From: Deltaproteobacteria bacterium
GTDB lineage: Bacteria > Desulfobacterota > Syntrophorhabdia > Syntrophorhabdales > JANXAF01
Assembly (NCBI GenBank): GCA_026417175.1
Contig: JAOADT010000016.1
Coordinates: forward strand, 1-52,490
Reading direction: 5' to 3'
Length of the DNA stretch: 52,490 bases
The translations under genes and the position numbers were made by a program. The notes below the pieces were generated by a model. It was not told the origin of the DNA. It saw only the letters and a program-made list of their open reading frames with translations, and did no database searches. Positions 16,729-32,526 of the stretch are shown here, piece by piece (positions within the stretch are counted from its first letter, which is position 1; the number at the start of each line of letters is the position of its first letter).

Positions 16729-16750
16729 TGAGCGCTCCTTTTTATCCTCC

Positions 16751-17689
16751 TTAGTCAAAGGCCCTCTTTGCCGAAAGAAGAATAGCTCTTCTTGTAAGGA
16801 CCTTAACCATCTCTCTTCTATACCAAGCTTCACCCCGTAGTGTGTCTCTCGGTTTCGCGACTGATGAGGCAATTTCAGAAGCCTCTCTAATAGCCTCATC
16901 AGTCAATCTTTTACCGCATAAATAATCTTCAGCCTCCTTTGCCCGAAGAGGCCTAGGGGCTACCACGCCCATTGCTATTCTCGCCTCTTTAACAGTGATT
17001 CCATAAGATAGGAGCCTTGATTCGAATTCGGAATAAGTCTTTTCCCCAGCTTCTCTTTTTAAGAAATCTATATCTACCTCTGGAGACAACGTAAGTCGTG
17101 TCGCCACGCTCACAATAGCTAAATCCATAGCTTCTCGTCTCGAATGCTTTATGTACGCTGATCCCGAATACGGAGGAAGAAAAGTTATTTCAAAGCCCGT
17201 TACAATCTCTCCCTCATCTTTCGATACAGAGTAAGGGCCAAGAAAAAAATCGTGGAGAGGTATTTTTCTTTCTCCCTTTTCATTTCTGATCAGCACCTTT
17301 GTGTCAAAGACCAAAAGGGGACATGCAGTATCTGCCGAGGGTGCCGCATTACATATGTTTCCTCCGATTGTTGCAACATTTCTTATCTGTTTTGAACCGA
17401 GTTTTCTTACCGCATCATGAAGTGCGGTGTAGTATTTCTCGATATATTTATCCTTTAATAACTGCTCGTGGGTTACACAACTTCCTATTTTTAGCTCCTT
17501 TCCTTTCTCTATGACTTTTAGAGCAGTTATGTTTCGTAAAGAGATCAAGTTTTTTGGAGAGATTTTCTTTCGTTTTATGTTAACCATCACATCTGTCCCA
17601 CCGGCTATGTAGATGGCATCGCCCAAGCTCTTAAAAAGATTTAGTGCCTCTTCAATACTTTGTGGCACGTGATAGTCAAATCTTTTCAC
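16751..17689 (-). CDS. FAD-binding subunit of Mo hydroxylase of the iaa-like operon
   Basis: A 312-residue CoxM/XdhB-type flavoprotein. Residues ~1-170 form the FAD-binding domain, with YIAGGTDVMVNIKR and RNVATIGGNICNAAPSADTA contacting FAD; residues ~190-310 are the flavoprotein C-terminal domain (MGVVAPRPLRAKEAE, WYRREMVKVL). There is no extra cysteine loop and no GltD insertion, in contrast to its homologue at 327-2705. The start codon is GTG, preceded by a purine-rich GGGGGGAA stretch. It follows the CoA ligase gene by 10 bases and completes an M-S-L trimer with the two downstream genes. Confidence 0.92.
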   Translation of the reverse strand: MKRFDYHVPQSIEEALNLFKSLGDAIYIAGGTDVMVNIKRKKISPKNLISLRNITALKVIEKGKELKIGSCVTHEQLLKDKYIEKYYTALHDAVRKLGSKQIRNVATIGGNICNAAPSADTACPLLVFDTKVLIRNEKGERKIPLHDFFLGPYSVSKDEGEIVTGFEITFLPPYSGSAYIKHSRREAMDLAIVSVATRLTLSPEVDIDFLKREAGEKTYSEFESRLLSYGITVKEARIAMGVVAPRPLRAKEAEDYLCGKRLTDEAIREASEIASSVAKPRDTLRGEAWYRREMVKVLTRRAILLSAKRAFD

Positions 17690-17699
17690 AATTCCCCCC

Positions 17700-19007
17700 T
17701 TAATTTAGATCCCTTTTGTCAAAAACTCTCTTCGTTTTTCTCTCCGAGCGTGGAAGGCTTCCGTAATCTACAATTTCAATATCGCAACTTACCATTATCT
17801 GATTCTTTATATCTTCTCCAATTTTCTTTATTATTAGGCTATCCATCTCAGGGGAAGACCTCACATCTTGAGCCCTTTCAACCTTGATAGTCATGTAGTC
17901 CTTCCCATCCTCTTTCCTTTCGAGATGAATCTGGTATTCACTACCAACCTCTTTTATTTTTGAGAGTATCTCATCGATGTGACTGGGATAGATGTTAACT
18001 CCTCTAAATATGAACATATCATCAGACCTTCCTAAAATTCGATCGTGCATCGGCATAAGACTCCCGCAAGGACATTTCTCTGGAATTATTCTCGTAAGAT
18101 CCCGCGTTCTGTACCGAATAAGCGGAACGGCCTCCTTTCTTAACGTGGTAACGACCATTTCTCCCACTTCTCCAGGTTTTACCGGTTCTAGTGTTTCTGG
18201 ATCCAGGATCTCCAGTATGTAATAGTCAGCCCAGTAATGAATACCCCTGTGGTATTTACAATCGAGCCCTGTTCCTGGGCCGTAAAGTTCGGTCATTCCA
18301 GGTATGTCATAAAGCTCATCATATGGAACCCCTGAAAGTTCTGAAATTTTTTTTCTCATTGCATCACTGGATCTCTCTGAACCGAAAATGATCTTTTTAA
18401 GTTTGATTTTTCCACGAAGGCCCCTTTTATCTATCTCTTCAGCCATAAGTAGCCCCATCGATGCCGTACAGCAAAGAACGGTGCTTTCAAAATCTTGAAG
18501 GAACTGGCACTGCATGTCTATATTGCCCGGGCCTATTGGTATTGCCATCGCACCGAACCTCTCACATCCATTCTGAAATCCCCATCCTGCAGTCCAGACT
18601 CCGTATCCCACCGCTATCTGGATCCTGTCTTCTTTTGTGCATCCAGCATAAGCGTAACATCTCGCGAACATATCTGCCCAGTCTTCAACGTCCTTTCTGG
18701 TGTAGCAAATAACTTTCCTTTTCCCAGTGGTACCAGAAGATGCGTGTATCCTTATAACGTCTCTTAATGGTACAGAAAGAAGTGGAAAGGGATAACCCTC
18801 CTGCAGGTCCTTTGTAGTAGTAAATGGAAGCCTTTTTAAGTCATCTAGGGTCCTTATATCCTCAGGCTTGACTTTAGCCTCGTCCAACTTTTTCCTATAA
18901 GCCCAAGATCCCGAGTAGGCATGCTTTACCGTCCACTTGAGTCCTTCAAGCTGAAGGTTCAGAAGCTCGTCCTCGCTTTTGACTTTGCTATCAAAAGGTC
19001 TCTCCAT
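17700..19007 (-). CDS. phenylacetate-CoA ligase-like AMP-forming acyl-CoA ligase
   Basis: 435 residues, the usual size of the PaaK family. Motifs include the ATP loop SSGTTGKRKVICYT, GYGVWTAGWGFQNGCER, IPGMTELYGPG, YRTRDLTRIIPEKCPCGS and the C-terminal hinge RSDDMFIFRGVNIYPSHI. The enzyme activates an aryl-acetic or related carboxylic acid with ATP and CoA. The Aromatoleum indoleacetate cluster contains a PaaK-like ligase (IaaB) reported to form indoleacetyl-CoA, and this gene fills the same slot. It lies between the hydantoinase pair and the Mo hydroxylase. Phenylacetate itself remains possible as substrate, but no other phenylacetate genes are present. Confidence 0.92.
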   Translation of the reverse strand: MERPFDSKVKSEDELLNLQLEGLKWTVKHAYSGSWAYRKKLDEAKVKPEDIRTLDDLKRLPFTTTKDLQEGYPFPLLSVPLRDVIRIHASSGTTGKRKVICYTRKDVEDWADMFARCYAYAGCTKEDRIQIAVGYGVWTAGWGFQNGCERFGAMAIPIGPGNIDMQCQFLQDFESTVLCCTASMGLLMAEEIDKRGLRGKIKLKKIIFGSERSSDAMRKKISELSGVPYDELYDIPGMTELYGPGTGLDCKYHRGIHYWADYYILEILDPETLEPVKPGEVGEMVVTTLRKEAVPLIRYRTRDLTRIIPEKCPCGSLMPMHDRILGRSDDMFIFRGVNIYPSHIDEILSKIKEVGSEYQIHLERKEDGKDYMTIKVERAQDVRSSPEMDSLIIKKIGEDIKNQIMVSCDIEIVDYGSLPRSERKTKRVFDKRDLN

Positions 19008-19032: not shown

Positions 19033-20757
19033 CTACATTTTAAATTTTCTCTCCCTCAGGTCCCTCGTTTTTTCGAAATTGATTTCCATGGTATCCGGGT
19101 TGATATAAACCCCATAGTCCCTAAGCGCTCCTTCTATGCTTACATAGCCCTCTATAACATCATTTAACACGAGATCAGGATCCCTTTCGTAGGGATCGCC
19201 ATATCCTCCCCCACCTGGTGCATCTATTGTGACCACATCACCTGGCATAAGCTGGGTTAGACCATAGGGATTTCCTTCCTTCCCATTTACCAGAAAGACT
19301 CCCCTTCTTCCGGGTTTCCCTCCAAAAAGGCCCTCTGGAGGATACACATATCTTCCCGCTTGAATTCCAAGATTTACAGGAGGAAGTGGCGCATACTCAT
19401 CATCGGGGACTCTAAACACTTCCCTTTTGCCGAGACCACCTCTAGTCCTGCCTGGACCGCCAGAATCGGGGATTAGCTCCCTCTTCTCCACAATCAACGG
19501 AGTATCGTTCTCAAATATTTCGACAGGTGTATTAGCGCCATTTGCGGGAAATATAAACACGTAGTTTCCATCGTTTTTCAATCCCGCACCCATGCCCCCA
19601 CCTCTTATTATTACAGAATGCCATTGAGATCCATCTTTTCTTCGGCCATAGAACACATTCATAGCCGCGGGAGTTCCACCAGATCCGGCTATGACTCTGT
19701 CAGGTAAGACCGTTGACAAAGCTTTGTATATGATTTCTGTAAGAAAGTGGCCTATCTGCATCCTTGCCGCACACGCAGCTGGAAACTTACAGTTAACTAT
19801 TGACCCATAAGGTGCAATGAGCGTTATAGGTCTTGCGCATCCTTCATTGTTAGGAATGTCAGGTGCAAACATGCTTTTTATAGCCATAAAAACGTAGGCA
19901 TATGTGAAGTTATAAACGACATTCCCACCCCAGTCCACCTGTGGCGACGAACCAGTGAGATCGACAATCACATCTTTTCCTCTTATCTCAACTTTCGCTT
20001 TAATGACTATGTCATCTTTTCCCTTGGGCTGTTCAATTATACCTTCGGCATAATAAACGCCATCAGGTATTTTTTCTATCTCTTCCCTTATACTCTTTTC
20101 CGTTATCATGATTATCTGTTCTGCCAAGTCATCCAATGTCTCAAGTTCAGTCTCCTCCATCATTTGCTTTATCTTTTCTGAACACACATGGTTTGCCGCT
20201 ATCTGCGACCTTATGTCACCTATTACCTGCTCAGGGGTTCTCACATTCCAGCGGATGATGTCCATGATCGCCTGATTAAGAACGCCTTTTTCAAAAAGTT
20301 TAACGGGAGGAATAAAAAGTCCCTCCTCAAAAACATCGTGGTTGTCAGAAGCAACCCTTCCTCCAATGTCTGAATGATGGAAAACACATGCGGTATACGC
20401 GACAAGTTTGTCCTTATAAAATATGGGGCTTAAGACACATACATCATTTAAATGACCAGCCAATATCCACGGATCGTTCGTTATGAGAACATCGCCTGGC
20501 CGAAAGTATCCTTCTGGAAAGCTATTTATCAATTTCTTGATACCCAAAGCCATAGCCCCAGACTGGCCAGGAGTGGCGAATGTCCCTTGAGCGAGTTCTC
20601 TTCCAAATCTGTCAGTAAACATGCAGGTATAATCGTGGGCATCCCTAAGAAGACTGGAAAAAGCTGTTCTCGCCACAGATGAGTCGGCCTCATCGACTAT
20701 AGATATAAGTCTTCTCCATAAAATCTCTATTGTGATCGGGTCAAACAATGAGCCCAT
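19033..20757 (-). CDS. hydantoinase B/oxoprolinase family protein
   Basis: 574 residues with the HyuB signature: FDPITIEILWRRLISIVDEAD at the N-terminus, AQGTFATPGQSGAMALG, DVLITNDPWILAGHLNDV, FHHSDIGGRVAS and, towards the end, DSGGPGRTRGGLGKREV and GDVVTIDAPGGGGYGDPYER. HyuA/HyuB pairs use ATP to hydrolyse lactam or cyclic-imide bonds (5-oxoproline, N-methylhydantoin) or to carboxylate ketones. Beside a Mo hydroxylase, CoA ligase and mutase, the best reading is ATP-dependent opening of an oxindole-type lactam. It follows hydantoinase A with a 1-base gap. Confidence 0.92.
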   Translation of the reverse strand: MGSLFDPITIEILWRRLISIVDEADSSVARTAFSSLLRDAHDYTCMFTDRFGRELAQGTFATPGQSGAMALGIKKLINSFPEGYFRPGDVLITNDPWILAGHLNDVCVLSPIFYKDKLVAYTACVFHHSDIGGRVASDNHDVFEEGLFIPPVKLFEKGVLNQAIMDIIRWNVRTPEQVIGDIRSQIAANHVCSEKIKQMMEETELETLDDLAEQIIMITEKSIREEIEKIPDGVYYAEGIIEQPKGKDDIVIKAKVEIRGKDVIVDLTGSSPQVDWGGNVVYNFTYAYVFMAIKSMFAPDIPNNEGCARPITLIAPYGSIVNCKFPAACAARMQIGHFLTEIIYKALSTVLPDRVIAGSGGTPAAMNVFYGRRKDGSQWHSVIIRGGGMGAGLKNDGNYVFIFPANGANTPVEIFENDTPLIVEKRELIPDSGGPGRTRGGLGKREVFRVPDDEYAPLPPVNLGIQAGRYVYPPEGLFGGKPGRRGVFLVNGKEGNPYGLTQLMPGDVVTIDAPGGGGYGDPYERDPDLVLNDVIEGYVSIEGALRDYGVYINPDTMEINFEKTRDLRERKFKM

Positions 20758-20758
20758 C

Positions 20759-22855
20759 TCATCCTCCTTTGATCTCTATCCAAAGGAAACCGTAATCATC
20801 AACGCTTATTTCTGTATCCTCTCCTGCAACAACCGTCGATTCCCTCTCTTCTATAATAGCTGGTCCATAAAATTTGGCTCCAGGGAAAATCTTATATCTG
20901 TCATAAACAGTGAAGGGTATAAATTCTTTCTTTAACTGTGAAAAGGCAAGCCTTTTACCTTTCACGGCTTCTTGAAGGTTTTTGTTCGCTTTTTTCTCAA
21001 TCTTCGACAGCTTAAGGAGCTTCTCAGGTAACTGGGCCCTCACCTTGAAATTTATGAATTCCACTTCTGATTCCGGGTAGGTCCTTCCGTAAAGCTTTTC
21101 ATAACATTCATCAAAGATCCTTCTTATCTCTTCTTTTTTGAACTCATAGAAAGGCTTATAAGATACGGGTACAGAAATTTCAGACCCTTGTCCGACAAAT
21201 CTCATATCAACAGATCTGGTGAAAATAATCCCTTCCTTTGAATACTCAACAAAAAGTGTTGATGCCGCTTCTCTTTCAAGTTTTTTAAAGATATCTTCTA
21301 TTTCACTGAAATCTGCTTTAGAAAGTGAAACCTTATGGCTCACTAACGCATCGAATGCCCGAGGAGCTGTGAAAAAGCCCATTGCCGACCCAACCCCTGC
21401 ATTAGGTGGAACCATTATTTTTTTTGCTCCCAGTTTTTTTGCCAAGCCATATGCATGCACCGGACCCGCACCGCCAAATGCGGCAATGGTCACTATTTTT
21501 GGATTACCTCCTTTTTCAGCAATGTGGGTTTTTGCAGCAGCAGCCATTGTCTCATTGATCAGATCGTGTATACCCCAGATTGCTTGCGTAAGCGTTACTT
21601 TTAAGGGTTTTGCTATCTTTTCCTCTATCCCGTATCTTGCCTTGTCCTTATTTAGTTTCATTTCTCCACCCAGGAAGTAACTTTCATCCAGATAACCAAG
21701 AAGAAGGTCCGCATCAGTAACACAGGGATCTTCTCCTCCCCTGTCGTAGCAAATAGGACCTGGATCAGCACCTGCGCTTTCAGGTCCAACCTTAAGTGTC
21801 CCCATCTTGCTTATTTTTGCTATGCTTCCACCACCGGCTCCTATCTCCATAAGGTCAACAACAGGCACCTGGATTGTAAGGCCACTGCCTTTCATAAACC
21901 TTTGAACTCGGCCCACTTCAAAAGTGGGAACGACTCCAGCTTCTCCTTTTTGAATAAGACACGATTTCGCCGTCGTGCCACCCATATCAAAACAGAACAT
22001 TTCAGAAATGTTGAAGTGTTTCCCATAATATTGGGCAGCTATGACTGCCGCAGTTGGGCCCGATTCTATTATTCTTACAGGAAATTCTTTTGCGGTCTCA
22101 ACTGAGGTTATTCCGCCACTACTTAGCATTATGAAGAGCTTGCCTCTAAAACCAAGTCGTTGTAATCTTTCCTTGAGATTGGATAGATATTTTTCAGTAA
22201 GAGGCTTGACATAGGCATTTGTGACAGTTGTACTTGTTCTTTCGTATTCCCTTATCTGAGGAAGAACTTTGTAAGATATGGACGTAGATATCCAGGGTGC
22301 CTCTTCATTTATTATCTCCTCAATCATCCTCTCATGTGATGGATTTTCGAATGAATTTATGAGGCACACTGCTATAGATTCTACTCCCTTACTTACAAGC
22401 CTTTTTACCACACTTCTTACCTCATCTGGATTCAAAGGTCTGAGAACAGAACCATCGCTTCTTATTCTTTCATCAACTTCCATCCTTAGATGTCTCGGCA
22501 CAAGAGGTTTTGGAAACTCGGCGAATATATCATACGGGGCGTATCTTATCTCTCTCCCAATTTCTAAAACATCTCTGAAACCCTTTGTGGTTATAAGGCC
22601 AGTTTTTGCACCTTTCCTTTCTATGATGGAATTTATGACAAGGGTTGTGCCATGAATGAACTCTTTCAATTCCGAAATAAAACCCGGTACCTTTTTTGAG
22701 AGGATTTTTATCCCTTCTTCGACAGCATCTGAAGGATCCTTCGGTGTGGTCAAACACTTTGCGGTGTAAATCTCACCCGTATCATCGTTTAAAAGAACAA
22801 AATCTGTGAACGTGCCTCCTATGTCACACCCAAGCCTAAAGTTTCTATCTGCCAT
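20759..22855 (-). CDS. hydantoinase A/oxoprolinase family protein
   Basis: 698 residues with an ASKHA-type ATPase core. Segments seen are GCDIGGTFTDFVLL near the N-terminus, FIHGTTLVINSIIERKGAKTG, RIIESGPTAAVIAAQYYG, CFDMGGTTAKSCLI, GAGGGSIAKI and FGGAGPVHAYGLAKKLGAKK. I start at the ATG at 22855, which has GGAGGA 6 bases upstream; an in-frame ATG eight codons earlier lies directly on the mutase stop and lacks such a site. It is the ATP-using partner of HyuB. Acetophenone or acetone carboxylases share this fold, but their extra small subunits are missing here. Confidence 0.92.
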   Translation of the reverse strand: MADRNFRLGCDIGGTFTDFVLLNDDTGEIYTAKCLTTPKDPSDAVEEGIKILSKKVPGFISELKEFIHGTTLVINSIIERKGAKTGLITTKGFRDVLEIGREIRYAPYDIFAEFPKPLVPRHLRMEVDERIRSDGSVLRPLNPDEVRSVVKRLVSKGVESIAVCLINSFENPSHERMIEEIINEEAPWISTSISYKVLPQIREYERTSTTVTNAYVKPLTEKYLSNLKERLQRLGFRGKLFIMLSSGGITSVETAKEFPVRIIESGPTAAVIAAQYYGKHFNISEMFCFDMGGTTAKSCLIQKGEAGVVPTFEVGRVQRFMKGSGLTIQVPVVDLMEIGAGGGSIAKISKMGTLKVGPESAGADPGPICYDRGGEDPCVTDADLLLGYLDESYFLGGEMKLNKDKARYGIEEKIAKPLKVTLTQAIWGIHDLINETMAAAAKTHIAEKGGNPKIVTIAAFGGAGPVHAYGLAKKLGAKKIMVPPNAGVGSAMGFFTAPRAFDALVSHKVSLSKADFSEIEDIFKKLEREAASTLFVEYSKEGIIFTRSVDMRFVGQGSEISVPVSYKPFYEFKKEEIRRIFDECYEKLYGRTYPESEVEFINFKVRAQLPEKLLKLSKIEKKANKNLQEAVKGKRLAFSQLKKEFIPFTVYDRYKIFPGAKFYGPAIIEERESTVVAGEDTEISVDDYGFLWIEIKGG

Positions 22856-22879
22856 CCTTCCTCCAACTGCAAAGACCAT

Positions 22880-24523
22880 TTAGAAAAGCGAGGGTTCCTG
22901 AAATTCCCCAAAGATGTCTCGAAAGACATTCGTCATCTCTCCCAAAGTACAGTATACCTTGCAACAATCAAGTAAGTATGGCATCACATTTTTGCCATCT
23001 TTTGTGGCCTTCTCGAGATCCTTTAAGGCCCTTTTTACGTCACTTTGGGATCTTCTCCTTTTGATTTCTTTTAGACTCTCTATCTGCATTCTGGCAGATT
23101 CTTCATTATATTCGTGAAGTTCGACCTCTTTAGGCTCACCTTCCACATGAATATTAACCCCCACCTTGAGAAGCTCGCCCTTTTCGATGCCCCTTTCTAT
23201 CTCATAGGCTTGTCTTGCCAACATTCTCTGGATGTAACCGTCTGAGACAGCCTTTATTATGCCTCCATATCTTTCTACCTTTTCCATTTCTTCGATAATT
23301 TTCTCTTCCATTTGCTTTGTTAGAGTTTCAATGAAATAGCTACCAGCAAGAGGATCAACCGTGTCCCTTAAACCCATCTCATCCATCAGGATTTGTAGGG
23401 TTCTCAAGGATATAAGGGCAGAATGTGGGGTGGGGATTGTGTATGCTTCATCGTAACTGCATAATGCCGTAGTCTGAGCACCTGATAGTGCAGCCACCAG
23501 AGCGTAATATGCCCCTCTCACTATGTTATTTTCTGGTTGGGCCTTGGTAAGCCCGTAGCCGCCTCCTCCAAATATTCCTCTCAAAAATAGATTTCTATCT
23601 TTTTTCACATTGTATCTTTCCCTCAAAAGTTTTGCCCATAATTTACGGGCCGCTCTGAATTTGGCTACCTGCTCCCATATGTTACCAAACACGTTGAAAT
23701 TAAAAGTAATCCCGCCTACGAACTCATCAGGTTCATAACCCCTTTTTACCACCTCGTCTATATAGGCAAACGCTATGAGAAAAGCATATGCGATTTCTTG
23801 TGCAGGTGTTGCTCCTGATTCCCTTATGTGATACCCGCATACGCTCACTGGGTTAGTCTTCGGCATAACCTTCATGGAGTATTCCATAATGTCACCCGTT
23901 AGCCGGATAGCATGCTCAACGGGGAATATCCACGCTCCTCTTCCTATCATCTCTTTAAGTATATCGTTCTGTGGAGTTGCCGAGATCGATTTTGAGTCAT
24001 AACCGTACTTCTCTGCTACCGCCTGAAACATTGCAAGTATTATGGAAGCAACTGCATTTATTGTTAGACCAACGCCTATTTTGTCCAACTCAATCCCTTC
24101 GAAGGCAATCTCAAAATCCCTAACAGTGTCAACTGCCATGCCCACTCTTCCAACTTCTCCTTCTGACATCGGATCATCCGAGTCGTAACCCATCTGAGTT
24201 GGAAGATCAAAGGCCACATTTAATCCTGTCTGTCCGTGAGATATCATGAATTTAAAACGCTCGTTAGTTTCCTTTGGGGTTCCAAATCCAGTGTACTGTC
24301 TTGTGGTCCAAGCTCTTGATCTGTAACCTAGGGGATGAATTCCCCGAGTGAAAGGGTACTTACCCGGGTCATTTAGATCCTCCTCATATAAAAAGCCTAT
24401 TTCCTCTAGATCTTTCGGAGTGTACACAGGTTTTACATGGATACCTGATTCCAAAATCACATCCAGAATCTGATCTCTGTCATTTTTTATGTATCTTGCA
24501 GTAGACATCCTCATCCTCCTCAC
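22880..24523 (-). CDS. adenosylcobalamin-dependent acyl-CoA mutase, catalytic subunit (methylmalonyl-CoA mutase type)
   Basis: 547 residues forming the TIM-barrel substrate domain of a split B12 mutase; the cobalamin domain is encoded separately upstream. Against methylmalonyl-CoA mutase the active-site residues fall at a constant offset of 12: Y77 (RQYTGF), Q185 (PQNDILKE), R195 and H232 (GYHIRESGAT) correspond to Y89, Q197, R207 and H244. The Tyr/Arg pair that reads a substrate carboxylate is thus kept, unlike the Phe/Gln of isobutyryl-CoA or Ile/Gln of hydroxyisobutyryl-CoA mutases. A succinyl-CoA-like substrate is expected. In this operon phenylsuccinyl-type substrates (the IaaG role) are more likely than plain propionate metabolism. 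It overlaps the B12 subunit gene by 4 bases. Confidence 0.92.
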   Translation of the reverse strand: MRRMRMSTARYIKNDRDQILDVILESGIHVKPVYTPKDLEEIGFLYEEDLNDPGKYPFTRGIHPLGYRSRAWTTRQYTGFGTPKETNERFKFMISHGQTGLNVAFDLPTQMGYDSDDPMSEGEVGRVGMAVDTVRDFEIAFEGIELDKIGVGLTINAVASIILAMFQAVAEKYGYDSKSISATPQNDILKEMIGRGAWIFPVEHAIRLTGDIMEYSMKVMPKTNPVSVCGYHIRESGATPAQEIAYAFLIAFAYIDEVVKRGYEPDEFVGGITFNFNVFGNIWEQVAKFRAARKLWAKLLRERYNVKKDRNLFLRGIFGGGGYGLTKAQPENNIVRGAYYALVAALSGAQTTALCSYDEAYTIPTPHSALISLRTLQILMDEMGLRDTVDPLAGSYFIETLTKQMEEKIIEEMEKVERYGGIIKAVSDGYIQRMLARQAYEIERGIEKGELLKVGVNIHVEGEPKEVELHEYNEESARMQIESLKEIKRRRSQSDVKRALKDLEKATKDGKNVMPYLLDCCKVYCTLGEMTNVFRDIFGEFQEPSLF

Positions 24524-24918
24524 TTCTTCACAGAAGCCTTAATGGCAGAGATTATTTCTTCGATCGGGGTTCCTCCTGGAAAAACGCCCTCAACACCCAT
24601 TTCTTTTAGTTTGGGAATGTCCTTTGATGGAATGACCCCACCGACAAAGATCTTTTTATCTTGAATTCCAAGTTCTTTCAGTTTTTCCATAAGTTTTCTT
24701 GTAAGTGGGATGTGGGCTCCGCTCATAATTGAAAGTCCTATTACATCCACATCTTCCTGAATTGCTATGTTTACTATCTGATCTATTGTTTTATGGAGAC
24801 CAGTATATATTACTTCCATACCTGCTTCTTTTAGGGCTAGGGCGATAACCTTAGCCCCCCTATCATGTCCGTCGAGCCCTGGCTTAGCTACAAGGACTTT
24901 TATTCTTTTTTCAGCCAA
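24520..24918 (-). CDS. cobalamin-binding subunit of acyl-CoA mutase
   Basis: 132 residues with a Rossmann-like B12-binding domain. The lower-axial ligand motif DGHDRG (D16, H18, G20) is present, followed by LSIMSGAHIPLTRKL and GGVIPSKDIPKLKEMGVEGVFPGGTPIEEI, which hold the nucleotide tail. It pairs with the catalytic subunit encoded immediately downstream, as in split isobutyryl-CoA, archaeal methylmalonyl-CoA and IaaGH-type mutases. The start overlaps the MeaB gene by 8 bases, so mutase and chaperone are made together. Confidence 0.94.
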   Translation of the reverse strand: MAEKRIKVLVAKPGLDGHDRGAKVIALALKEAGMEVIYTGLHKTIDQIVNIAIQEDVDVIGLSIMSGAHIPLTRKLMEKLKELGIQDKKIFVGGVIPSKDIPKLKEMGVEGVFPGGTPIEEIISAIKASVKK

Positions 24919-25870
24919 GGGTTTCCTCCAGTTTTCCGTTTTTTAAAATATTGGAAACCACAAGCCTAGCCATGTAATATGGATCCAACTTTTTGCTTAT
25001 GACCTGAGCTAAGAGATCATTGAAAGTAATATTTTTTTCCATCATTTCTTCTATTCCTTTTTCCATTTCTTCCTTTATCAAAGCTATGACTAAGGTCTTG
25101 ATTTTCTCTTTATTTTCCTTTTCTTCTTTGAGTTTTTTTTCTCTTTCTTGTTCTAGTGTATCTATGAGGAGTTCAACCCCTTGTCCTTGCCTAGCAATGG
25201 TTTTAACTAAAGGGACCGAAATTTCTCCCTTTATACTTTCAAGGTAATGGATTATGTCCTTAGCTTTTTCTTCGGCATTAGGAATATCCATTTTGTTCAT
25301 CACGATTATATCTCCAATATCCAAGAGTCCAGCTTTCATAAGTTGGATTTCATCGCCAAAATCTGGCGTCAAGACAGTGATTACTACATCAGAGATAAGG
25401 GATATACTCAGTTCGGTCTGCCCTACCCCAACACTTTCCACGATGATAATTTCCTTACCTAATGCTTCAAGTATACACTCTGCGCCTAACGCCGCTTTCG
25501 ATATGCCCCCTGAAAATCCTCTGTGGGCCATGGATCTTATAAATATCCCTTCAATTTTTTCTGCGTTTTTTAATCGGAGTCTATCTCCGAAAAATGCGCC
25601 TTTTGTTTTTATACTAGTTGGATCTATAGCTATCACACCTATTTTTTTTCCTTTTTTTCCGTAACAGAAGGCCAACCTATCGATAATTGTGCTTTTGCCG
25701 GCTCCCGGAGAACCTGTTACACCAATTCTAAAAGAAGTACCGGTTTTGGGGTAAAGTTTAGATAAAACCTCAAAACCCGTTTCTTCTCCATTTTCTATCA
25801 TAGAGATTGCCCTAGAGGCTGCTTTCTCATCACCTGAGATTATTCTTTCCGCAAGATCATTCGGATTCAT
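24911..25870 (-). CDS. meaB: MeaB/ArgK-type GTPase chaperone of B12 mutase
   Basis: 319-residue G3E GTPase. The Walker A GSPGAGKST lies near residue 53, and Walker B/switch elements are in IGVIAIDPTS, IRSMAHRGFSGGISKAA and IIIVESVGVGQTE. The NKMD base-recognition motif is in IVMNKMDIPNAEEKAKD. MeaB proteins gate the loading of adenosylcobalamin into mutases and rescue inactivated enzyme. Overlap with the B12-subunit gene supports a dedicated role for this operon's mutase. The C-terminal helix region is longer and more charged than usual (REKKLKEEKENKEKIKTL). Confidence 0.94.
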   Translation of the reverse strand: MNPNDLAERIISGDEKAASRAISMIENGEETGFEVLSKLYPKTGTSFRIGVTGSPGAGKSTIIDRLAFCYGKKGKKIGVIAIDPTSIKTKGAFFGDRLRLKNAEKIEGIFIRSMAHRGFSGGISKAALGAECILEALGKEIIIVESVGVGQTELSISLISDVVITVLTPDFGDEIQLMKAGLLDIGDIIVMNKMDIPNAEEKAKDIIHYLESIKGEISVPLVKTIARQGQGVELLIDTLEQEREKKLKEEKENKEKIKTLVIALIKEEMEKGIEEMMEKNITFNDLLAQVISKKLDPYYMARLVVSNILKNGKLEETLG

Positions 25871-25879
25871 GATTTTTTC

Positions 25880-26566
25880 TCAGCCTTTTATCAGTTCTTC
25901 CTTAATTTTTTTCTTTATAAGCTTTTTCCCCCTGAGTATGTGCTTTTTAATCAATGATTCCACTTTTTTTGCATTTTTCGATTTCATAAGCTCTATCATA
26001 TCTTTATGGTCCCGGAGAGAAACCTCTGCGAGTGTTCTATGCCTGAAAATTATGATCCTGAACCTGTAAATGAAGTCCCTCAAATCGTTGATCATGGAGT
26101 AAAGAAGTTTGCTCTTTGAAGCTCTATACAGCTTGTCGTGAAACTCGGTGTTGAGCTTAACAAGGGCATCCATATCATTTTTTTCAACATATTCCTCGCC
26201 CTTCTTCACAATCTCTTCGAGATCACGGAGTTCCTCCTCTGTAATTTTAAAAGTCGCAAGATATCCTGCGTAACCCTCAAGAATGCTCCTTATACCAAAA
26301 ACTTCATCTATATCCTCATCTGTTATGGATCTCACGGCAAATCCACCTTTTGGAAGCTTGTATATGAGACCTTCTTTTTCAAGCTTCTGTATTGCCTCAC
26401 GCACTGGTGTTCGACTCGTTCCTAACTGGGATGCGATTTTTTCTTCAATGAGCCTCTTGTTTGCCTCCAGAACACCATTAAGGATGTGTTCTTTTAGTTT
26501 TCTGTATACCTGTTCTCTCAGTGATTTCCCTTTTCGTAGTTTCGGTCTAGATTCCTCTGCTCCCAT
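25880..26566 (-). CDS. GntR family transcriptional regulator (FadR/FCD subfamily)
   Basis: 228 residues. The winged helix-turn-helix (~15-85) includes LIEEKIASQLGTSRTPVREAIQKLEKEGLI; the C-terminal FCD effector domain is all-helical with the metal/ligand residues expected around NTEFHDKLYRAS and LRDHKDMI ... KKHI. Such regulators are usually repressors released by a pathway acid or CoA ester. The gene is second in the catabolic operon, between the CoA-transferase and meaB, and two GTATAC-centred palindromes flank the operon promoter. Autoregulation of the operon by this protein is therefore a direct prediction. A TAGGAG ribosome binding site precedes the ATG. Confidence 0.93.
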   Translation of the reverse strand: MGAEESRPKLRKGKSLREQVYRKLKEHILNGVLEANKRLIEEKIASQLGTSRTPVREAIQKLEKEGLIYKLPKGGFAVRSITDEDIDEVFGIRSILEGYAGYLATFKITEEELRDLEEIVKKGEEYVEKNDMDALVKLNTEFHDKLYRASKSKLLYSMINDLRDFIYRFRIIIFRHRTLAEVSLRDHKDMIELMKSKNAKKVESLIKKHILRGKKLIKKKIKEELIKG

Positions 26567-26575
26567 GTTTCACTC

Positions 26576-27775
26576 CTAGATTATTTTTCTAGATTTAAGT
26601 TCTTCTATATATGCTTTGGGATAACCCAGTGTATCACAGTAAATCTTTTCGTTGTCTTCTCCAAACCTTGGCGGAAATTTCACTTTTCTGTTTTTCGCCT
26701 TAACATAGTCGGTTGTGTAAGGAAGAGGAGCAAGATAAATGGTGAGTCCTGTCCGCTCGTCTACTGAGATAAGCATCTCATTTTTTACATAAGGATCCTC
26801 TATAACTTCATCTATGGTGTTAACTTTGGAAATTGGGATTGTAGCCTCTGAGAAAAGCTTGATAAGTTCCTCTGTCTTGTACCCCCTTGTGATCTCCTCT
26901 ATTCTAGCATTGAGGTTTTTTACGTCTTTTATTCTACCTTCGTTTCTTTCATACTCAGGCCTTGAAAGGACTTCAAAACCGGGAATTTTCAACATTCTTT
27001 CCCATTGTAGATCGTTCCCAACAGCGATATATACATAACCATCGAGGGTTTTATAAACGCTTACCGGCGCAAAAAACTCGTGGGTATTACCCTTGCGTGT
27101 TATACGTTTCTTGAAAGATTTCACCTGGTTTATGGGGACTGTAAGCCAAGAAACAGTACTCTGAAACATCGAAAGATCTATCCTTGTTCCCTCTTTGGTA
27201 ATTGCCCTTTTATAAAGGGCTTTCATTATTAAACCATAAGCGTGTTCACTTGCACCCATGTCTGGTAGGGGAATACCTAGCACAAAGGGAGGACCGTCTT
27301 TATCTCCGGTTAAATCCATAAGTCCTCCTCTTGCCTGAAGAATAGGATCGTAGGCTGGTTCGTTGCTTTCAGGACCGAAGCCTGTTAAACCTACCCAGAT
27401 TATGTCATCTTTTATAGCTCTCATAGATTCGTAATCTATGCCCAGTTTTTTGTAATTCCGAGGGAGTTGATTTGTTAAGAATATATCTACGTTTAACTTT
27501 TTTATAAGATTTTTAAATATCTCTTGTCCCTCCGGAGTGGCAAGATCGAGTGTTATACATTCTTTATTACAATTTATCGGCAAAAAATAAGAATACATTC
27601 GGTCCTCATTTAATATATTATCTCCAACCCTTCTGTTGGGATCTCCATAAACAGGATGTTCCATCCTTATGACCCGCATCCCATCCATAGCAAGCCTGTA
27701 TGTAAGATAAGGTAAAACAGTTGCCTGTTCTAATGAAAGAACGGTTGTGTTCTTGAATAATTCATAAAACTCCAT
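26576..27775 (-). CDS. class III (CaiB/BaiF) CoA-transferase
   Basis: 399 residues of the formyl-CoA transferase family. Typical segments are VLSLEQATVLPYLTYRLAMDG at the N-terminus, NCNKECITLDLATPEGQEIFKNLI, VGLTGFGPESNEPAYDPILQARGGLMDLTGD and LPDMGASEHAYGLIMKALY, whose aspartate is at the position of the catalytic Asp. It exchanges CoA between an acyl-CoA and a free acid. It is the first gene of the catabolic operon, next to the operator-flanked promoter. The Aromatoleum indoleacetate cluster has a family III phenylsuccinyl-CoA transferase (IaaL); this is its probable counterpart. Exact substrates are inferred, not seen. Confidence 0.9.
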   Translation of the reverse strand: MEFYELFKNTTVLSLEQATVLPYLTYRLAMDGMRVIRMEHPVYGDPNRRVGDNILNEDRMYSYFLPINCNKECITLDLATPEGQEIFKNLIKKLNVDIFLTNQLPRNYKKLGIDYESMRAIKDDIIWVGLTGFGPESNEPAYDPILQARGGLMDLTGDKDGPPFVLGIPLPDMGASEHAYGLIMKALYKRAITKEGTRIDLSMFQSTVSWLTVPINQVKSFKKRITRKGNTHEFFAPVSVYKTLDGYVYIAVGNDLQWERMLKIPGFEVLSRPEYERNEGRIKDVKNLNARIEEITRGYKTEELIKLFSEATIPISKVNTIDEVIEDPYVKNEMLISVDERTGLTIYLAPLPYTTDYVKAKNRKVKFPPRFGEDNEKIYCDTLGYPKAYIEELKSRKII

Positions 27776-27795: not shown

Positions 27796-27803
27796 TGTAT
27801 ACA
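27796..27803. promoter_or_regulatory. downstream candidate GntR operator (TGTATACA)
   Basis: Perfect 8-bp palindrome, AATTGTATACAGA on the minus strand, covering about +5 to +12 of the predicted transcript. Its centre is 54 bp, roughly five helical turns, from the centre of the upstream copy. Confidence 0.6.
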
Positions 27804-27814
27804 ATTTTTTCTTC

Positions 27815-27843
27815 ACTATATCTCTCGAATTCTCCCTTGTCAA
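27815..27843 (-). promoter_or_regulatory. main promoter of the iaa-like catabolic operon
   Basis: On the minus strand TTGACA (27838-27843) and TATAGT (27815-27820) are separated by exactly 17 bases, a near-consensus sigma-70 promoter. The predicted start of transcription is near 27808, about 33 bases before the CoA-transferase ATG. Candidate operators lie on both sides. Confidence 0.8.
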
Positions 27844-27848
27844 GAACT

Positions 27849-27858
27849 TTGTATACAA
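27849..27858. promoter_or_regulatory. upstream candidate GntR operator (TTGTATACAA)
   Basis: Perfect 10-bp palindrome placed 5 bases upstream of the -35 box. Sequences of the TTGTATACAA type are common targets of FCD-class GntR regulators, and such a regulator is encoded as the second gene of the operon. Confidence 0.65.
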
Positions 27859-28241
27859 TTACGGGAAAAAAATCCTTTGCTTCTTTGTGTGTGTATGTTG
27901 GCTTTAACAAGTAGTAAGATAAATGCCCTAATGAGATTGGTGATAAACTAATACCTATAAGAGTCCTGAGAAAGATTCAAAGGAGATGTTTGATCTTGAG
28001 ATAGAAAGACCTCGACATGAGGGAATAAATAAAAAAACACACCCATCTTTGATCTACTTTTCAAGAAGAGGAAAAAGGGTATCATTATCAACACTATGCA
28101 CGGTTTAAAGAGAATCGTACCTTACGTCATTTTTATCAAAGGATTAATCTCGTGAAATGCCTTTCCGTTTTTGATAAAGAAAAACAATTTAACCTAAAGC
28201 TAGATGAGTCCCAGACCAGGTACTTGAAGCAGACATTATGA
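27859..28241. other. intergenic region, no recognised gene
   Basis: AT-rich sequence between the operator region and the decayed LuxR fragment. All frames are interrupted by stops. It may be more of the decayed regulator gene, but I could not recognise a receiver domain in it. Confidence 0.4.
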
Positions 28242-28397
28242 GTCCAAGACTCGCTTGCTGAAAAGCCATCGTACGAGACTTTGACAACCCGAGAAATAGA
28301 AACACTTAAACCAATTGGCGAGGGTTACTCTTATATGGAAATTGCTGAGATGCTTTCTTGCCTTCCAGAACCGTTGAAACTTAGAAAAGCAAACTAA
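28242..28397 (+). pseudogene. decayed LuxR/NarL-type response regulator, C-terminal HTH remnant
   Basis: From 28266 the frame reads LTTREIETLKPIGEGYSYMEIA then EMLSCLPEPLKLRKAN and a stop. This matches the LuxR-type HTH pattern LTxREREVLxLIAEGxSNKEIAxxL-S-TVKxHRAN. The recognition helix is degraded (LPEPLKL instead of SPRTVKNH) and a stop falls just after it. Upstream of 28242 an in-frame stop separates it from any receiver domain. It appears to be a dead gene fragment on the opposite strand to the operons around it. Confidence 0.55.
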
Positions 28398-28402
28398 TGG
28401 TG

Positions 28403-28432
28403 AAGCTCCACCTTAAAAAGTAGGTGGAGCTT
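28403..28432. terminator. perfect 11-bp hairpin between metF and the decayed LuxR gene
   Basis: AAGCTCCACCT (28403-28413) pairs perfectly with AGGTGGAGCTT (28422-28432) around an 8-base loop. It lies 24 bases beyond the metF stop. Neither side has a long T tract, so an intrinsic terminator is only plausible; it may instead protect the 3' end of the hydrogenase-metVF mRNA. Confidence 0.45.
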
Positions 28433-28455
28433 ATATAATACACAAATAAAAAAGT

Positions 28456-29379
28456 CTAAAACTTGGGTCTTGGATAAAGACCAGCGGCTTCGACAATTTC
28501 AGGAACAGTTTCTTCCCACTCAATTGCCATTATGTGGACACCGGCCACACCTTTAATTTCCTTAAGTTGTCTTATAATATCCACACAGAGCCTTATCCCT
28601 TCTTTAGGTACCTGGTCTTTTGGCACGCTCTGTAGTCTTGTTATTACCTCATCCGGTACATCCATTCCAGGGATCTTAGTTTTCATATATTTTGCAGCAC
28701 CGATGGATTTTATGGGAGAAACGCCAGCTATAATCTTCACCTTTTGATCAAGACCTATATCACAAACTCTTTTCATCCATTCTTTAAATTTTTCTACGTT
28801 ATAAACTATCTGGGTTTGTATAAAGTCCGCACCAGCTTCAACTTTCTTCTTAAGTCTCAATACCCTAAAATCAAATGGATCCGCAAAGGGATTTTCCGCA
28901 GCACCTATAAAAAGCCTTGGTTCGTGAGATATCGATTCTCCGTTTTGGAATCTCTTTTCATCTCTCATGTCTTTGACAATCTTGATAAGTTGCACAGAGT
29001 CTACATCAAAAACACCTTTCGCCTGAGGGTGATTCCCAAATTTAGGATGATCGCCTGTAAGACAGAGGATATTGTTTATTCCTAAAGCCGCAATTCCTAG
29101 TATATCCATCTGAAGGGCAATCCTATTTCTGTCCCGGCAAGTCATTTGCACTATTGGATCAAGGCCATATTCTTTGCCGATGAGACAGGCTGCCCAGCTT
29201 GCCATTCTCACGACAGCGGTCTGACCGTCCGTAACGTTGAATCCGTCTACATATCCGGAAAGAAGTTTAGCTTTCTTCCTTACCTCTTCCGCGTCCGCAC
29301 TTTGAGGGGGGCCAACCTCAGCAGTAACAGCAAAATAACCTGCCTCTAATATCCTCTCTAGATTGCTTTTCGTCTTCAT
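28456..29379 (-). CDS. metF: methylenetetrahydrofolate reductase
   Basis: A 307-residue TIM-barrel flavoprotein of the MetF family. Segments seen are FAVTAEVGPPQSADAEEVRKKA at the N-terminus, VDGFNVTDGQ, PIVQMTCRDRNRIALQ, NILCLTGDHPKFG, EAGADFIQTQIVYN and IIAGVSPIKSIGAAKYM. It reduces methylene-H4folate to methyl-H4folate, the last methyl-branch step of the Wood-Ljungdahl pathway and the source of methyl groups for methionine. It is shorter than the E. coli regulatory types. It follows metV by 10 bases with a strong AGGAGG site, and together with metV and a [NiFe] hydrogenase it forms a four-gene operon. Confidence 0.95.
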   Translation of the reverse strand: MKTKSNLERILEAGYFAVTAEVGPPQSADAEEVRKKAKLLSGYVDGFNVTDGQTAVVRMASWAACLIGKEYGLDPIVQMTCRDRNRIALQMDILGIAALGINNILCLTGDHPKFGNHPQAKGVFDVDSVQLIKIVKDMRDEKRFQNGESISHEPRLFIGAAENPFADPFDFRVLRLKKKVEAGADFIQTQIVYNVEKFKEWMKRVCDIGLDQKVKIIAGVSPIKSIGAAKYMKTKIPGMDVPDEVITRLQSVPKDQVPKEGIRLCVDIIRQLKEIKGVAGVHIMAIEWEETVPEIVEAAGLYPRPKF

Positions 29380-29389
29380 CTTTTACCTC

Positions 29390-30037
29390 CTAAAACCTTT
29401 TTACAGGCGGACCGGATATCAAACTCACACTCCAGTCTTTGGGGGCTACCAAGAATTCCATCTTGTCAAGCCGGCCTATCTCTTTGAGTCTGTCATATAT
29501 AAGGTGCCAGACACATGGAATGGTAGCATCCACCTCACACTTTCCGTACTGGGAACCACCACAGGGACCGTTCAGTAAGTGCTTGGAACACCTGGAAATA
29601 GGACACAGTCCACCAGTATACTCAAGAACGCAATTTCCACATTCCATACACCGCTCTGCTCCCTTCCATTCCGCGTGTCCACCCCCTAAAGAGATGGTGT
29701 TACATCCAGGATGAACCATCTTTTTTACAAGCTCAGATACAACCTGAACACCTGCACCATCTGTAAAAACAATCAGTGAATCAGCTTCGTCTATTTTCTT
29801 TTTAAAGTTTTTCAACTTCAGGGCTGCAAGGGCTTTATCACATAGCATATCAACAAGTACATAACCAGTTATCACCTTACCATTTTCTTCGAGCTTCTTT
29901 TTCATTTCCAGAATCTCTTTCTCTCCCCCACTTTCCCATCCTTCCGCACATCCTCTACATCCCACAAGAAATACTTTATTTTCTCCGTTAAGATATCCTA
30001 TTATCTCTTCAAAAGGTTTCTGTTTAGAGATAAGCAT
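29390..30037 (-). CDS. metV: MetV-type zinc/iron-sulfur partner of MetF
   Basis: 215 residues. The N-terminal half has VGCRGCAEGWESGG and a Rossmann-like segment; the C-terminal half is the methylene-H4folate reductase C-terminal domain, with clustered cysteines in CMECGNCVLEYTGGLCPISRC and LNGPCGGSQYGKCEV. In acetogens MetV is the obligate partner of MetF and links it to electron carriers other than NADH. Here the upstream neighbours are hydrogenase subunits rather than hdrCBA-mvhD or rnfC2, so the electron source may be H2. It starts 12 bases after the hydrogenase large subunit gene. Confidence 0.9.
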   Translation of the reverse strand: MLISKQKPFEEIIGYLNGENKVFLVGCRGCAEGWESGGEKEILEMKKKLEENGKVITGYVLVDMLCDKALAALKLKNFKKKIDEADSLIVFTDGAGVQVVSELVKKMVHPGCNTISLGGGHAEWKGAERCMECGNCVLEYTGGLCPISRCSKHLLNGPCGGSQYGKCEVDATIPCVWHLIYDRLKEIGRLDKMEFLVAPKDWSVSLISGPPVKRF

Positions 30038-30049
30038 CTCGTTCCTCCT

Positions 30050-31609
30050 TTATATGATACGAAAGACCTTCCCTTCTTTTCCTCGCGCATCTATAATGTG
30101 TATGGAACATGCCAGACAAGGGTCGAAGGATCTCACGATTCTCACAAGCTCAAAGGGGTTCTTTTCATCTTTTATTCTTGTTCCTATGAGCGCTTGTTCA
30201 AGAGGACCAGGTTGATCCTTATCATCCTTAGGAGATACATTCCACGTCGATGGAGTTATTACCTGATAATTATCTATTCTTTTGCCCTTTATCCTTATTG
30301 CATGGCATAAAGCACCACGTGCGGCATCCACTAAACCTATTCCCTCGGACTCTTCTGGAATTTCATATGGGACGTAGCACGGTTCACCTACTTTCAGACT
30401 GAGCACCCATTCTTCCATTGCCTCAGCCAGTAACTTCGTCTCAAGTGCCCGTGCCAAATGTCTACCCATTGTGGAAAACATGTTTTCAATCTTCATTCCA
30501 ATTTCACTGAGAGCGCTGTCCATTAGCGCTTTCACTTTTTTATTGCCTTTGACATAATTTACCATCATTCTTGCTAAAGGACCTACTTCGTAAACCATGC
30601 CATCGTATCTTGGCGACTTAAGCCAAGAATAAGCCCCCTGTTTTCCTACAAAAGGAGCTGTCACCCCGTCTTTTGGATGTTTTCCAGAAGAGGAATCCTC
30701 GTAATACGAATACTTTACGTATTCTCTAATCTTTTGCGGATCAACTTCCTCATAGTCGAGATTAAGGGATGTTCTTCCTGAGGCATGGAATCTCGCTCGT
30801 TTCATCAAGTCTTTTTCCTTCCCATCAATGTCGTATACGCCGAACGATAAAAGTTTCCCACACCCCTTCCCTATCTCAAAATAATCTGAATATACTTTAG
30901 CAACAGCTATAACGTCAGGAATGTAAACATTATCTACAAACTCTTTTATCTCTTTAAGTCTCCAAAGAAAATTTGTAATACTGTCAACCGTCGGAGTAGA
31001 AGCCACTCCTCCAGGTAATATTCCGACATTATGGGGCATTTTCCCGCCAAAAATAGCTCCCATCTCCTGCCCTTTTCTTCTCATATGGAGTGCTTTCACG
31101 TAATGACTTATGGCAGCCTCATTTACTTTGTCTGGAAGTCGATAATCTCCTTCGTACCTTGGCACAAATGGTCCAAGCTCTCCCCTCTTGATAAAATTTT
31201 TAATGGAGATCAAATCCTGGTCATCTCCTTGATAATCTCTTATTTTTGCCACATCCACATAGTCCAAAGCGGAAAGGTGGTAGAAATGGAGAATGTGGTC
31301 AGAAAGTTCTGCAGCTCCAACGATAAGGTTTCTCATAATGCGGCCGTTATCAGGTATTTTATCATCTATACCGAAGGCTGCATCAAGGTTCAGAGCCGAT
31401 GCCATCGCGTGAGGAGTGGGACAGACACCGCAAACCCTCTGTGTAATCATTTGTGCATCTCTAGGATCTCTCCCTTTCAGTATTATCTCCAAGCCTCTAA
31501 AAAGCATCCCAGAGCTTCTTGCCTGAGTAACAATGCCTTTTTCCACTTCCACTTCTACCTTTAAATGTCCTTCGATTCTTGTTAATGGGTCAATGACTAT
31601 TCGTCCCAT
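30050..31609 (-). CDS. [NiFe] hydrogenase large subunit, group 1-like
   Basis: 519 residues carrying both nickel-binding motifs: RVCGVCPTPHA (C60, C63) and DPCLACSIH (C498, C501) near the C-terminus. A 15-residue tail after H504 (IIDARGKEGKVFRII) is the peptide normally cut off by a maturation protease, so maturation genes must exist elsewhere. Sequence features (IDPLTRIEGHLKVEVEV, MLFRGLEIILKGRDPRDA) resemble group 1 uptake enzymes. It is directly followed by metV. The catalytic role is H2 oxidation or evolution; the partner is the small subunit encoded one base upstream. Confidence 0.95.
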   Translation of the reverse strand: MGRIVIDPLTRIEGHLKVEVEVEKGIVTQARSSGMLFRGLEIILKGRDPRDAQMITQRVCGVCPTPHAMASALNLDAAFGIDDKIPDNGRIMRNLIVGAAELSDHILHFYHLSALDYVDVAKIRDYQGDDQDLISIKNFIKRGELGPFVPRYEGDYRLPDKVNEAAISHYVKALHMRRKGQEMGAIFGGKMPHNVGILPGGVASTPTVDSITNFLWRLKEIKEFVDNVYIPDVIAVAKVYSDYFEIGKGCGKLLSFGVYDIDGKEKDLMKRARFHASGRTSLNLDYEEVDPQKIREYVKYSYYEDSSSGKHPKDGVTAPFVGKQGAYSWLKSPRYDGMVYEVGPLARMMVNYVKGNKKVKALMDSALSEIGMKIENMFSTMGRHLARALETKLLAEAMEEWVLSLKVGEPCYVPYEIPEESEGIGLVDAARGALCHAIRIKGKRIDNYQVITPSTWNVSPKDDKDQPGPLEQALIGTRIKDEKNPFELVRIVRSFDPCLACSIHIIDARGKEGKVFRII

Positions 31610-32479
31610 TTATACCTCCCTAGGAAATTCGGCTTCTTCTAATTTCACATAAAGGGGTGAAACCTCATCTAGAAAACCCTCAGAACAGCAGCCTATACAC
31701 GTGGATCCACTACCCACACACCAGTTCGCTTTACTGTTCCAGAGCCTTATCGGACAATCAGAGTAAGTAACAGGTCCTCTGCATCCAAGATCATAAAGGC
31801 ATCCAGGATCTCCGAACTTCTTAGCGAATTTTTTCTCATCATAATATGCTCTTCTTGGGCAATTTTCGTGGATTGTCTGAGAAAAAAACATTTTCGGTCG
31901 ACGAAGTTCGTCCAGGTCATCCAGTTTAGGTAACCCAAAAAGCAAAACGCTCGCTACTGTCCCCAAAAACCAGTCAGGGTGAGGCGGACAACCTGGGATG
32001 TTTATGTAGGGGGTTTCGATCCCTGATTCTTCCAGTACCTCTCCTACTGGTTTGCAACCTGTTGGGTTCGGCTTTCCTTTAGGTATACCTCCAAACGAAG
32101 CACATGATCCAAATGCAATAACTGCCAGTGCGGATTCTGAAAGGTCTCGAACCCAAGAGAGCATGGTTAGTGGATTTCCGTCTCTTTCTCCAATCACTCC
32201 ATAGAGACCGTTTTCGCTTGTGGGTATGGCTCCCTCGACAATAAGGATATAACCCTTTTTCTTTTCCCTCACTGTGTTACTTAAGACCTCAAGAACCGCT
32301 TCTCCCTGACCAGCCATAACGTTAGGGTGGAATCTCAAGTTCACATGCTTCTGAGGAAGAATCTCATCTATTAAGACATTTTTTATATTAGGGTGATCAG
32401 CATTTAAAATAGAGATGGAGCAACCCGTACATCCTGCAGCCTGAATCCATATTGCAGGGATTTCCATTACTTCTCCCAT
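31610..32479 (-). CDS. [NiFe] hydrogenase small subunit without Tat signal
   Basis: 289 residues from the ATG at 32479, chosen because AAAGGAGG lies just before it; an in-frame GTG five codons earlier sits inside that site. The proximal cluster ligands are in AAGCTGCSISIL; further Fe-S ligands are in GPVTYSDCPIRLWNSKANWCVG and CIGCCSEGF. It lacks the RRxFxK twin-arginine signal and the C-terminal membrane helix of typical group 1 enzymes, so the dimer should stay in the cytoplasm. That fits joint action with the cytoplasmic MetVF encoded downstream. Confidence 0.93.
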   Translation of the reverse strand: MGEVMEIPAIWIQAAGCTGCSISILNADHPNIKNVLIDEILPQKHVNLRFHPNVMAGQGEAVLEVLSNTVREKKKGYILIVEGAIPTSENGLYGVIGERDGNPLTMLSWVRDLSESALAVIAFGSCASFGGIPKGKPNPTGCKPVGEVLEESGIETPYINIPGCPPHPDWFLGTVASVLLFGLPKLDDLDELRRPKMFFSQTIHENCPRRAYYDEKKFAKKFGDPGCLYDLGCRGPVTYSDCPIRLWNSKANWCVGSGSTCIGCCSEGFLDEVSPLYVKLEEAEFPREV

Positions 32480-32526
32480 TTTTCCTCCTTTCACCTTAAT
32501 AAGGATTGACCTGTTACTTAAGAGAG

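Follow-up and report, generated by a model that had tools for sequence, protein, structure and literature searches.

A near-consensus promoter flanked by two palindromes

The DNA analysed here, a window of 52,490 bases from a genome of the order Syntrophorhabdales, carries a catabolic operon on its minus strand. Gene 1 (26576–27775) encodes a family III CoA-transferase of the CaiB/IaaL-like type (PF02515, E 1.9e-77), and gene 2 (25880–26566) a GntR regulator with an FCD domain (PF00392, PF07729), the putative binder of both palindromes described below. These are followed by a MeaB-like GTPase, a mutase chaperone (gene 3, 24911–25870; PF03308, TIGR00750), the B12-binding, IaaH-like mutase subunit (gene 4, 24520–24918; TIGR00640), the IaaG-like large subunit of the acyl-CoA mutase (gene 5, 22880–24523; TIGR00641), an A-type hydantoinase/oxoprolinase subunit (gene 6, 20759–22879; PF01968, PF05378), a B-type hydantoinase subunit (gene 7, 19033–20757; PF02538), a phenylacetate-CoA-ligase-like (PaaK-like) ligase (gene 8, 17700–19007; PF14535 and PF00501, with TIGR02155 below its cut-off) and the FAD, FeS and Mo subunits of a molybdenum hydroxylase (genes 9–11, 13982–17689).

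Together with an IaaF-like dehydrogenase encoded outside the window, the CoA-transferase, B12 mutase, hydantoinase-like pair and CoA ligase correspond by family to the enzyme types of the iaa pathway, the specific NCBIfam models scoring below their cut-offs. The operon and the regulon described below probably serve anaerobic indoleacetate degradation in Syntrophorhabdales, the substrate being assigned by family only. As described for Aromatoleum aromaticum, the iaa cluster likewise brings the CoA-transferase IaaL, the mutase IaaGH, the acyl-CoA dehydrogenase IaaF and the ligase IaaB into one pathway (PMC8360864), whereas in the window's genome the acyl-CoA dehydrogenase sits in a separate operon. 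The regulator genes of A. aromaticum are iaaQ and iaaR (PMC8360864), while the operon in the window has a GntR gene.

The minus strand reads ATTGTATACAAAGTTCTTGACAAGGGAGAATTCGAGAGATATAGTGAAGAAAAAATTGTATACAGAAGG and then an ATG at 27775. Here a −35 hexamer TTGACA (27838–27843, first base 27843) and a −10 hexamer TATAGT (27815–27820, ending at 27815), separated by a 17-base spacer, match the consensus at 11 of 12 positions and rank top of six promoter-like sites in 3 kb; 39 bases lie between the end of the −10 and the ATG. The upstream putative operator, O1 (TTGTATACAA, 27849–27858), is a perfect 10-bp palindrome centred at 27853.5; this centre precedes the −35 hexamer's first base by 10 bp and lies at about −46 from the start inferred from the hexamers. 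The downstream one, O2 (TTGTATACAG on the minus strand, 27796–27805), has as its core the 8-bp perfect palindrome TGTATACA (27796–27803), centred at 27799.5, 15 bp past the −10 and at about +8 of the same inferred start. The coordinates thus confirmed the first-pass annotation in its description of a near-perfect TTGACA-N17-TATAGT promoter flanked by two palindromes whose centres lie 54 bp apart. Between this promoter and the upstream gene, nearly 600 bases (27861–28455) hold no listed open reading frame of at least 100 aa, with a terminator-like hairpin at 28399–28412; the region directly upstream of the operon (28456–32494) carries a methylenetetrahydrofolate-reductase-like gene beside genes for the large and small subunits of a nickel-iron hydrogenase.

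Conservation of the paired sites across Syntrophorhabdales

TGTATACA occurs three times in the 52,490-base window, where 0.44 copies are expected. When the 680-bp intergenic stretch was shuffled 20,000 times with dinucleotides preserved, no shuffle contained two copies and 136 contained at least one; a close pair is found once in the 2.146-Mb genome. To place these sites in context, we used a sample of 46 Syntrophorhabdales genomes, 38 of which encode the CoA-transferase; in 22, the window included, its gene stands directly before the GntR gene. All 22 of these promoters have the identical TTGACA, and 20 the TATAGT. GTATAC lies just downstream of the −10 in every one, with at most one mismatch to TTGTATACAA in 21. 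The upstream palindrome is retained with at most one mismatch in 20 of the 22 (window included) and at most two in 21, leaving locus L068 as the one CoA-transferase/GntR promoter that lacks it. Because the DNA further upstream of these promoters has diverged, the conserved sites amount to a footprint. In addition, a whole-genome scan with a pair pattern (GTATACA, 30–58 bases, TTGTATACA) gave matches in 20 of the 46 genomes, 19 of them at the CoA-transferase/GntR promoter and one (G041) with two matches, both elsewhere; with the reversed control, 3 of 46 genomes gave a match. At one locus (L092; genome G024, C78) the GntR gene lies in two reading frames, through a sequencing error or as a broken gene.

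These data bear on the reading that the palindromes arose by chance in AT-rich intergenic DNA. The genome-wide count of the 8-mer, which stands at background with 34 copies against 38 for the reversed control, is what chance would give, but both the conservation in relatives and the pairing of the sites argue otherwise, and we consider a chance origin extremely improbable.

The first-pass annotation had also drawn attention to the five-turn geometry of the two sites, as suited to dimers on one face of the DNA or to a loop. In the window itself, 54 bp corresponds to 5.1 turns. The distance between centres at 21 loci, however, runs through 45, 46, 53, 54 (two loci), 56, 57 (two), 58 (ten), 59 (two) and 60 bp, without helical periodicity and with its most frequent value, 58 bp, at 5.5 turns; the 54-bp spacing is confined to the window and one relative. 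Since the phase is not kept, the five-turn argument fails, and fixed five-turn phasing is ruled out by these spacings. A DNA loop of 54 bp would moreover demand severe bending. Across loci the O1 centre stays 10–13 bp before the −35 while O2 shifts in position; the upstream site is missing altogether at L068, and the acyl-CoA dehydrogenase promoters described below have a single site. Atu1419, an FCD regulator of Agrobacterium fabrum, is described as a tetramer that loops 190 bp (PMC7797058), and a similar tetramer might be imagined here; the lack of a conserved phase argues against an obligate loop of this type, and we regard a loop, or two dimers held on one face by helical phase, as improbable. 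What stays constant across loci is the close packing of the sites around the promoter.

The GntR-FCD protein encoded by gene 2

Gene 2 combines an N-terminal GntR winged helix (PF00392, E 2.3e-17) with a C-terminal all-helical FCD domain (PF07729, E 2.4e-24). Its structure model (mean pLDDT 86) matches the folds of PmiR, Atu1419, McbR and TM0439, with Atu1419 being both the best sequence match among solved structures and the second-ranked fold match after PmiR. Residues S51, R52, T53, P54, R56 and E57 do not vary among aligned relatives (13 of 13 in one alignment, 14 of 14 in another), and T53 is replaced by V or I in relatives from another lineage. A search of plasmids with the GntR protein returned matches that were all under 60% identity.

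The sites match the published NyGT-Nx-ACNy consensus for GntR regulators of the FadR/FCD type and are, as such, predicted binding sites. The operator of MdcY, the malonate decarboxylase regulator of the FadR subfamily, is ATTGTATACAAT; likened by description, it has GT and AC 2 nt apart as here, while the pathway differs. FadR-subfamily sites with this 2-nt separation are known, MdcY being one example (PMC4494728).

A closer parallel is found in Atu1419 itself, a VanR-group FCD GntR protein (PDB 6Z74, 6ZA3), which is described as using GTATAC-centred 10-bp palindromes, one of them over the −10, and as an autoregulated repressor of aromatic acid catabolism (PMC7797058), the role that we propose for gene 2. 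Atu1419 binds ATGTATACAT through R31, E34, R45, T46 and R49 (PMC7797058). These five contacts align to identical residues of gene 2 (R38, E41, R52, T53 and R56), as do its four metal ligands N137, H141, H192 and H214 (N139, H143, H187 and H209), and both sets are invariant in an alignment of 13 relatives. Gene 2 thus has the FCD metal-ligand set (D/N, H, H, H) and a putative metal site. The two proteins differ in overall sequence (about 25% identity), in the outer bases of their operators (ATGTATACAT versus TTGTATACAA), and in that the Atu1419 sites are 190 bp apart, looped and, by the same account, tied to a hydroxycinnamate pathway (PMC7797058).

The same palindrome precedes other operons of the pathway

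We next considered copies of TGTATACA in intergenic DNA, defined as having no mechanical open reading frame of at least 100 aa over the site (L016 was included, since its VOC homology begins at a GTG past the site). In the window's genome 9 of the 34 copies are intergenic. Two are the promoter pair; the acyl-CoA dehydrogenase, a TRAP DctP gene, a second Mo-hydroxylase and a VOC/methylmalonyl-CoA-epimerase-like gene each have one in front; two more precede TRAP permease genes that adjoin a TetR-type gene (identified by eye), and the ninth is 215 bp away from a gene for an MFS transporter. The copies beside the TetR-type gene form a second pair, 34 bp apart (L011/L012; G000 C11:19626 and 19660), and no intergenic copy was seen before such TRAP genes in the relatives G001 or G002. 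In G001, 5 of 13 copies are intergenic, all before pathway genes, and 8 lie within open reading frames; in G002, 7 of 16 are intergenic, 6 of them before pathway operons and the exception at a TAXI-type TRAP gene (by eye), with 9 within open reading frames. The first-pass annotation had named a palindrome scattered at random across the genome as a finding that would speak against its proposal. Such scatter is seen in the raw 8-mer count, which is at background, but not in the intergenic copies, which in these two relatives precede operons of the regulon with a single exception.

Across the wider sample, a site precedes the IaaF-like acyl-CoA dehydrogenase operon at 23 of 29 loci (30 were fetched, one ending at a contig end), and of the six loci lacking it, five belong to the other lineage while the sixth is a 77% paralogue. 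These promoters have a single site, and in all eight examined of the 23 the palindrome overlaps the −10, so that repression is implied. Sites were also found before TRAP DctP (18 of 30 loci), the VOC epimerase (11 of 30, some with the perfect 17-mer TTGTATACAGTATACAA) and the second Mo-hydroxylase (only 6 of 30). For the acyl-CoA dehydrogenase and DctP comparison the GTATAC background stood at 0.02–0.11 per 220 bp. In the window's genome the IaaF-like gene itself lies outside the window (L013:326-1474; G000 C11:54402-55547), with an EtfB-like gene next to it (by eye); in the sister lineage an acyl-CoA dehydrogenase homologue is near the CoA-transferase.

At the second Mo-hydroxylase of three genomes of family f1, the site is found only upstream of the likely promoter, an arrangement that fits activation as well as repression. 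This weak promoter, together with the steady 10–13 bp between O1 and the −35, is compatible with a dual regulator that would use O1, at about −46, for activation (with or without effector) and O2 for repression. The main promoter, however, with its 11 of 12 consensus positions, should need no activator, and the acyl-CoA dehydrogenase and VOC promoters have their sites only over or after the −10, making a dual role unlikely as an account of the system.

Probable assignment of the sites to gene 2

The window's genome has four GntR genes over the Pfam cut-off, and one paralogue (C11:143428) has the same contact residues as gene 2, judged by eye in translation, so gene 2 cannot be picked out by these residues alone. 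Given this paralogue, the assignment rests on linkage, on sites in self-promoters and on the pathway-specific regulon. A different regulator, for example another GntR protein of the genome, could bind the palindromes with gene 2 as a mere neighbour. Weighing against gene 2, the acyl-CoA dehydrogenase and the transporter are still preceded by the palindrome in two assemblies (G025 and G040) where neither a CoA-transferase nor a close GntR gene turned up; both assemblies are of MAG type and may be incomplete. Against a different regulator, the motif is linked with gene 2 in 22 of 22 loci, and its intergenic copies are nearly confined to the pathway. Moreover, of ten GntR homologues outside the operon (not counting eight more that sit within catabolic operons of the other lineage), six (L073, L074, L075, L076, L080 and L083) carry GTATAC no further than 250 bp from their start, one has ATATAC (L077) and three have neither (L078, L082 and L090), whereas the remaining three clear GntR genes in the window's genome have no GTATAC immediately before them. 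The four homologues without GTATAC count against the assignment to gene 2. A different regulator therefore seems a poor candidate, with little probability. Comparison strongly supports the earlier proposal that the palindromes are predicted sites of the operon's own GntR protein: the pair is conserved, and the motif recurs at other pathway operons and at the promoters of unlinked homologues.

Tandem boxes in the sister lineage

In the other 16 genomes with a CoA-transferase, every CoA-transferase promoter contains GTATAC at least once within 300 bp; 15 of the 16 carry GTATACnGTATAC, that is, GTATAC boxes at an exact 7-bp period; no matches with box offsets of 6 or 8 were found in these promoters. 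The arrays comprise two to four boxes, L130 reaching four, and in many cases a single site lies 76–92 bp further upstream. Among window-type promoters, 9 of 22 show a further GTAT(A/C)C box at a distance of 7 bp, which the window lacks. Tandem 7-bp boxes were seen at L123-L130 and L165-L172 (the sister-lineage CoA-transferase promoters), and at L083, L016 and L298-L310. We had considered that the motif might be limited to the close GntR clade and missing where the GntR is 45% identical; this is refuted by the GTATAC in the CoA-transferase promoter of those genomes, where some 8 kb separate the CoA-transferase from the GntR gene downstream of it.

Weaker extra boxes 7–12 nt from the centres of GntR sites have been reported (PMC4494728). 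NanR of E. coli, also an FCD GntR protein, has closely spaced repeated boxes reminiscent of the 7-bp arrays of these relatives, and is described as binding three close repeats cooperatively (PMC8012715). Its boxes, however, are direct repeats of GGTATA and its N-terminus is extended by 32 residues (PMC8012715), and the window is without a tandem array. It is conceivable, if rather doubtful, that a single FCD family governs the entire anaerobic auxin-degradation regulon and switched its operators from a promoter-bracketing pair to 7-bp tandem arrays between the sister lineages, its dimers assembling in the manner of NanR and perhaps activating the second Mo-hydroxylase from −46 while repressing the rest.

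A proposed pathway-specific, autoregulated repressor

Taken together, the paired conservation, the regulon, the sites at the self-promoters of homologues and the shared Atu1419 contacts make O1 and O2 most likely the operators of gene 2. We therefore propose, with good confidence in the explanation as a whole, that they are predicted operators for a dimer of this GntR protein, acting as an autoregulated and pathway-specific repressor. Without effector, GntR dimers would occupy both sides of the near-consensus promoter and block RNA polymerase, O2 covering the start region and O1 abutting the −35 and the upstream polymerase contacts. An acid of the pathway, or its CoA ester, would enter the FCD pocket and release the dimers. 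Because the regulator is the second gene of the operon, the protein would repress its own synthesis; very probably it would also repress the IaaF-like acyl-CoA dehydrogenase operon, the TRAP transporter and the VOC epimerase. Such a system would be ordinary in kind, an autoregulated FCD repressor that acts on about five operons through a defined predicted operator.

A literature search on both Syntrophorhabdus and GntR found no paper; among the matches listed, no title or abstract opening mentioned a GntR regulator for anaerobic indoleacetate degradation, and a search for TTGTATACAA listed only papers unrelated by title. The analysis provides a testable regulator, an operator sequence and a regulon of roughly five operons for the probable anaerobic degradation of indoleacetate, the plant hormone auxin, in organisms known here mostly from MAGs; through the regulon, this pathway is connected with three systems encoded outside the window: a TRAP transporter, an acyl-CoA dehydrogenase operon and a VOC epimerase.
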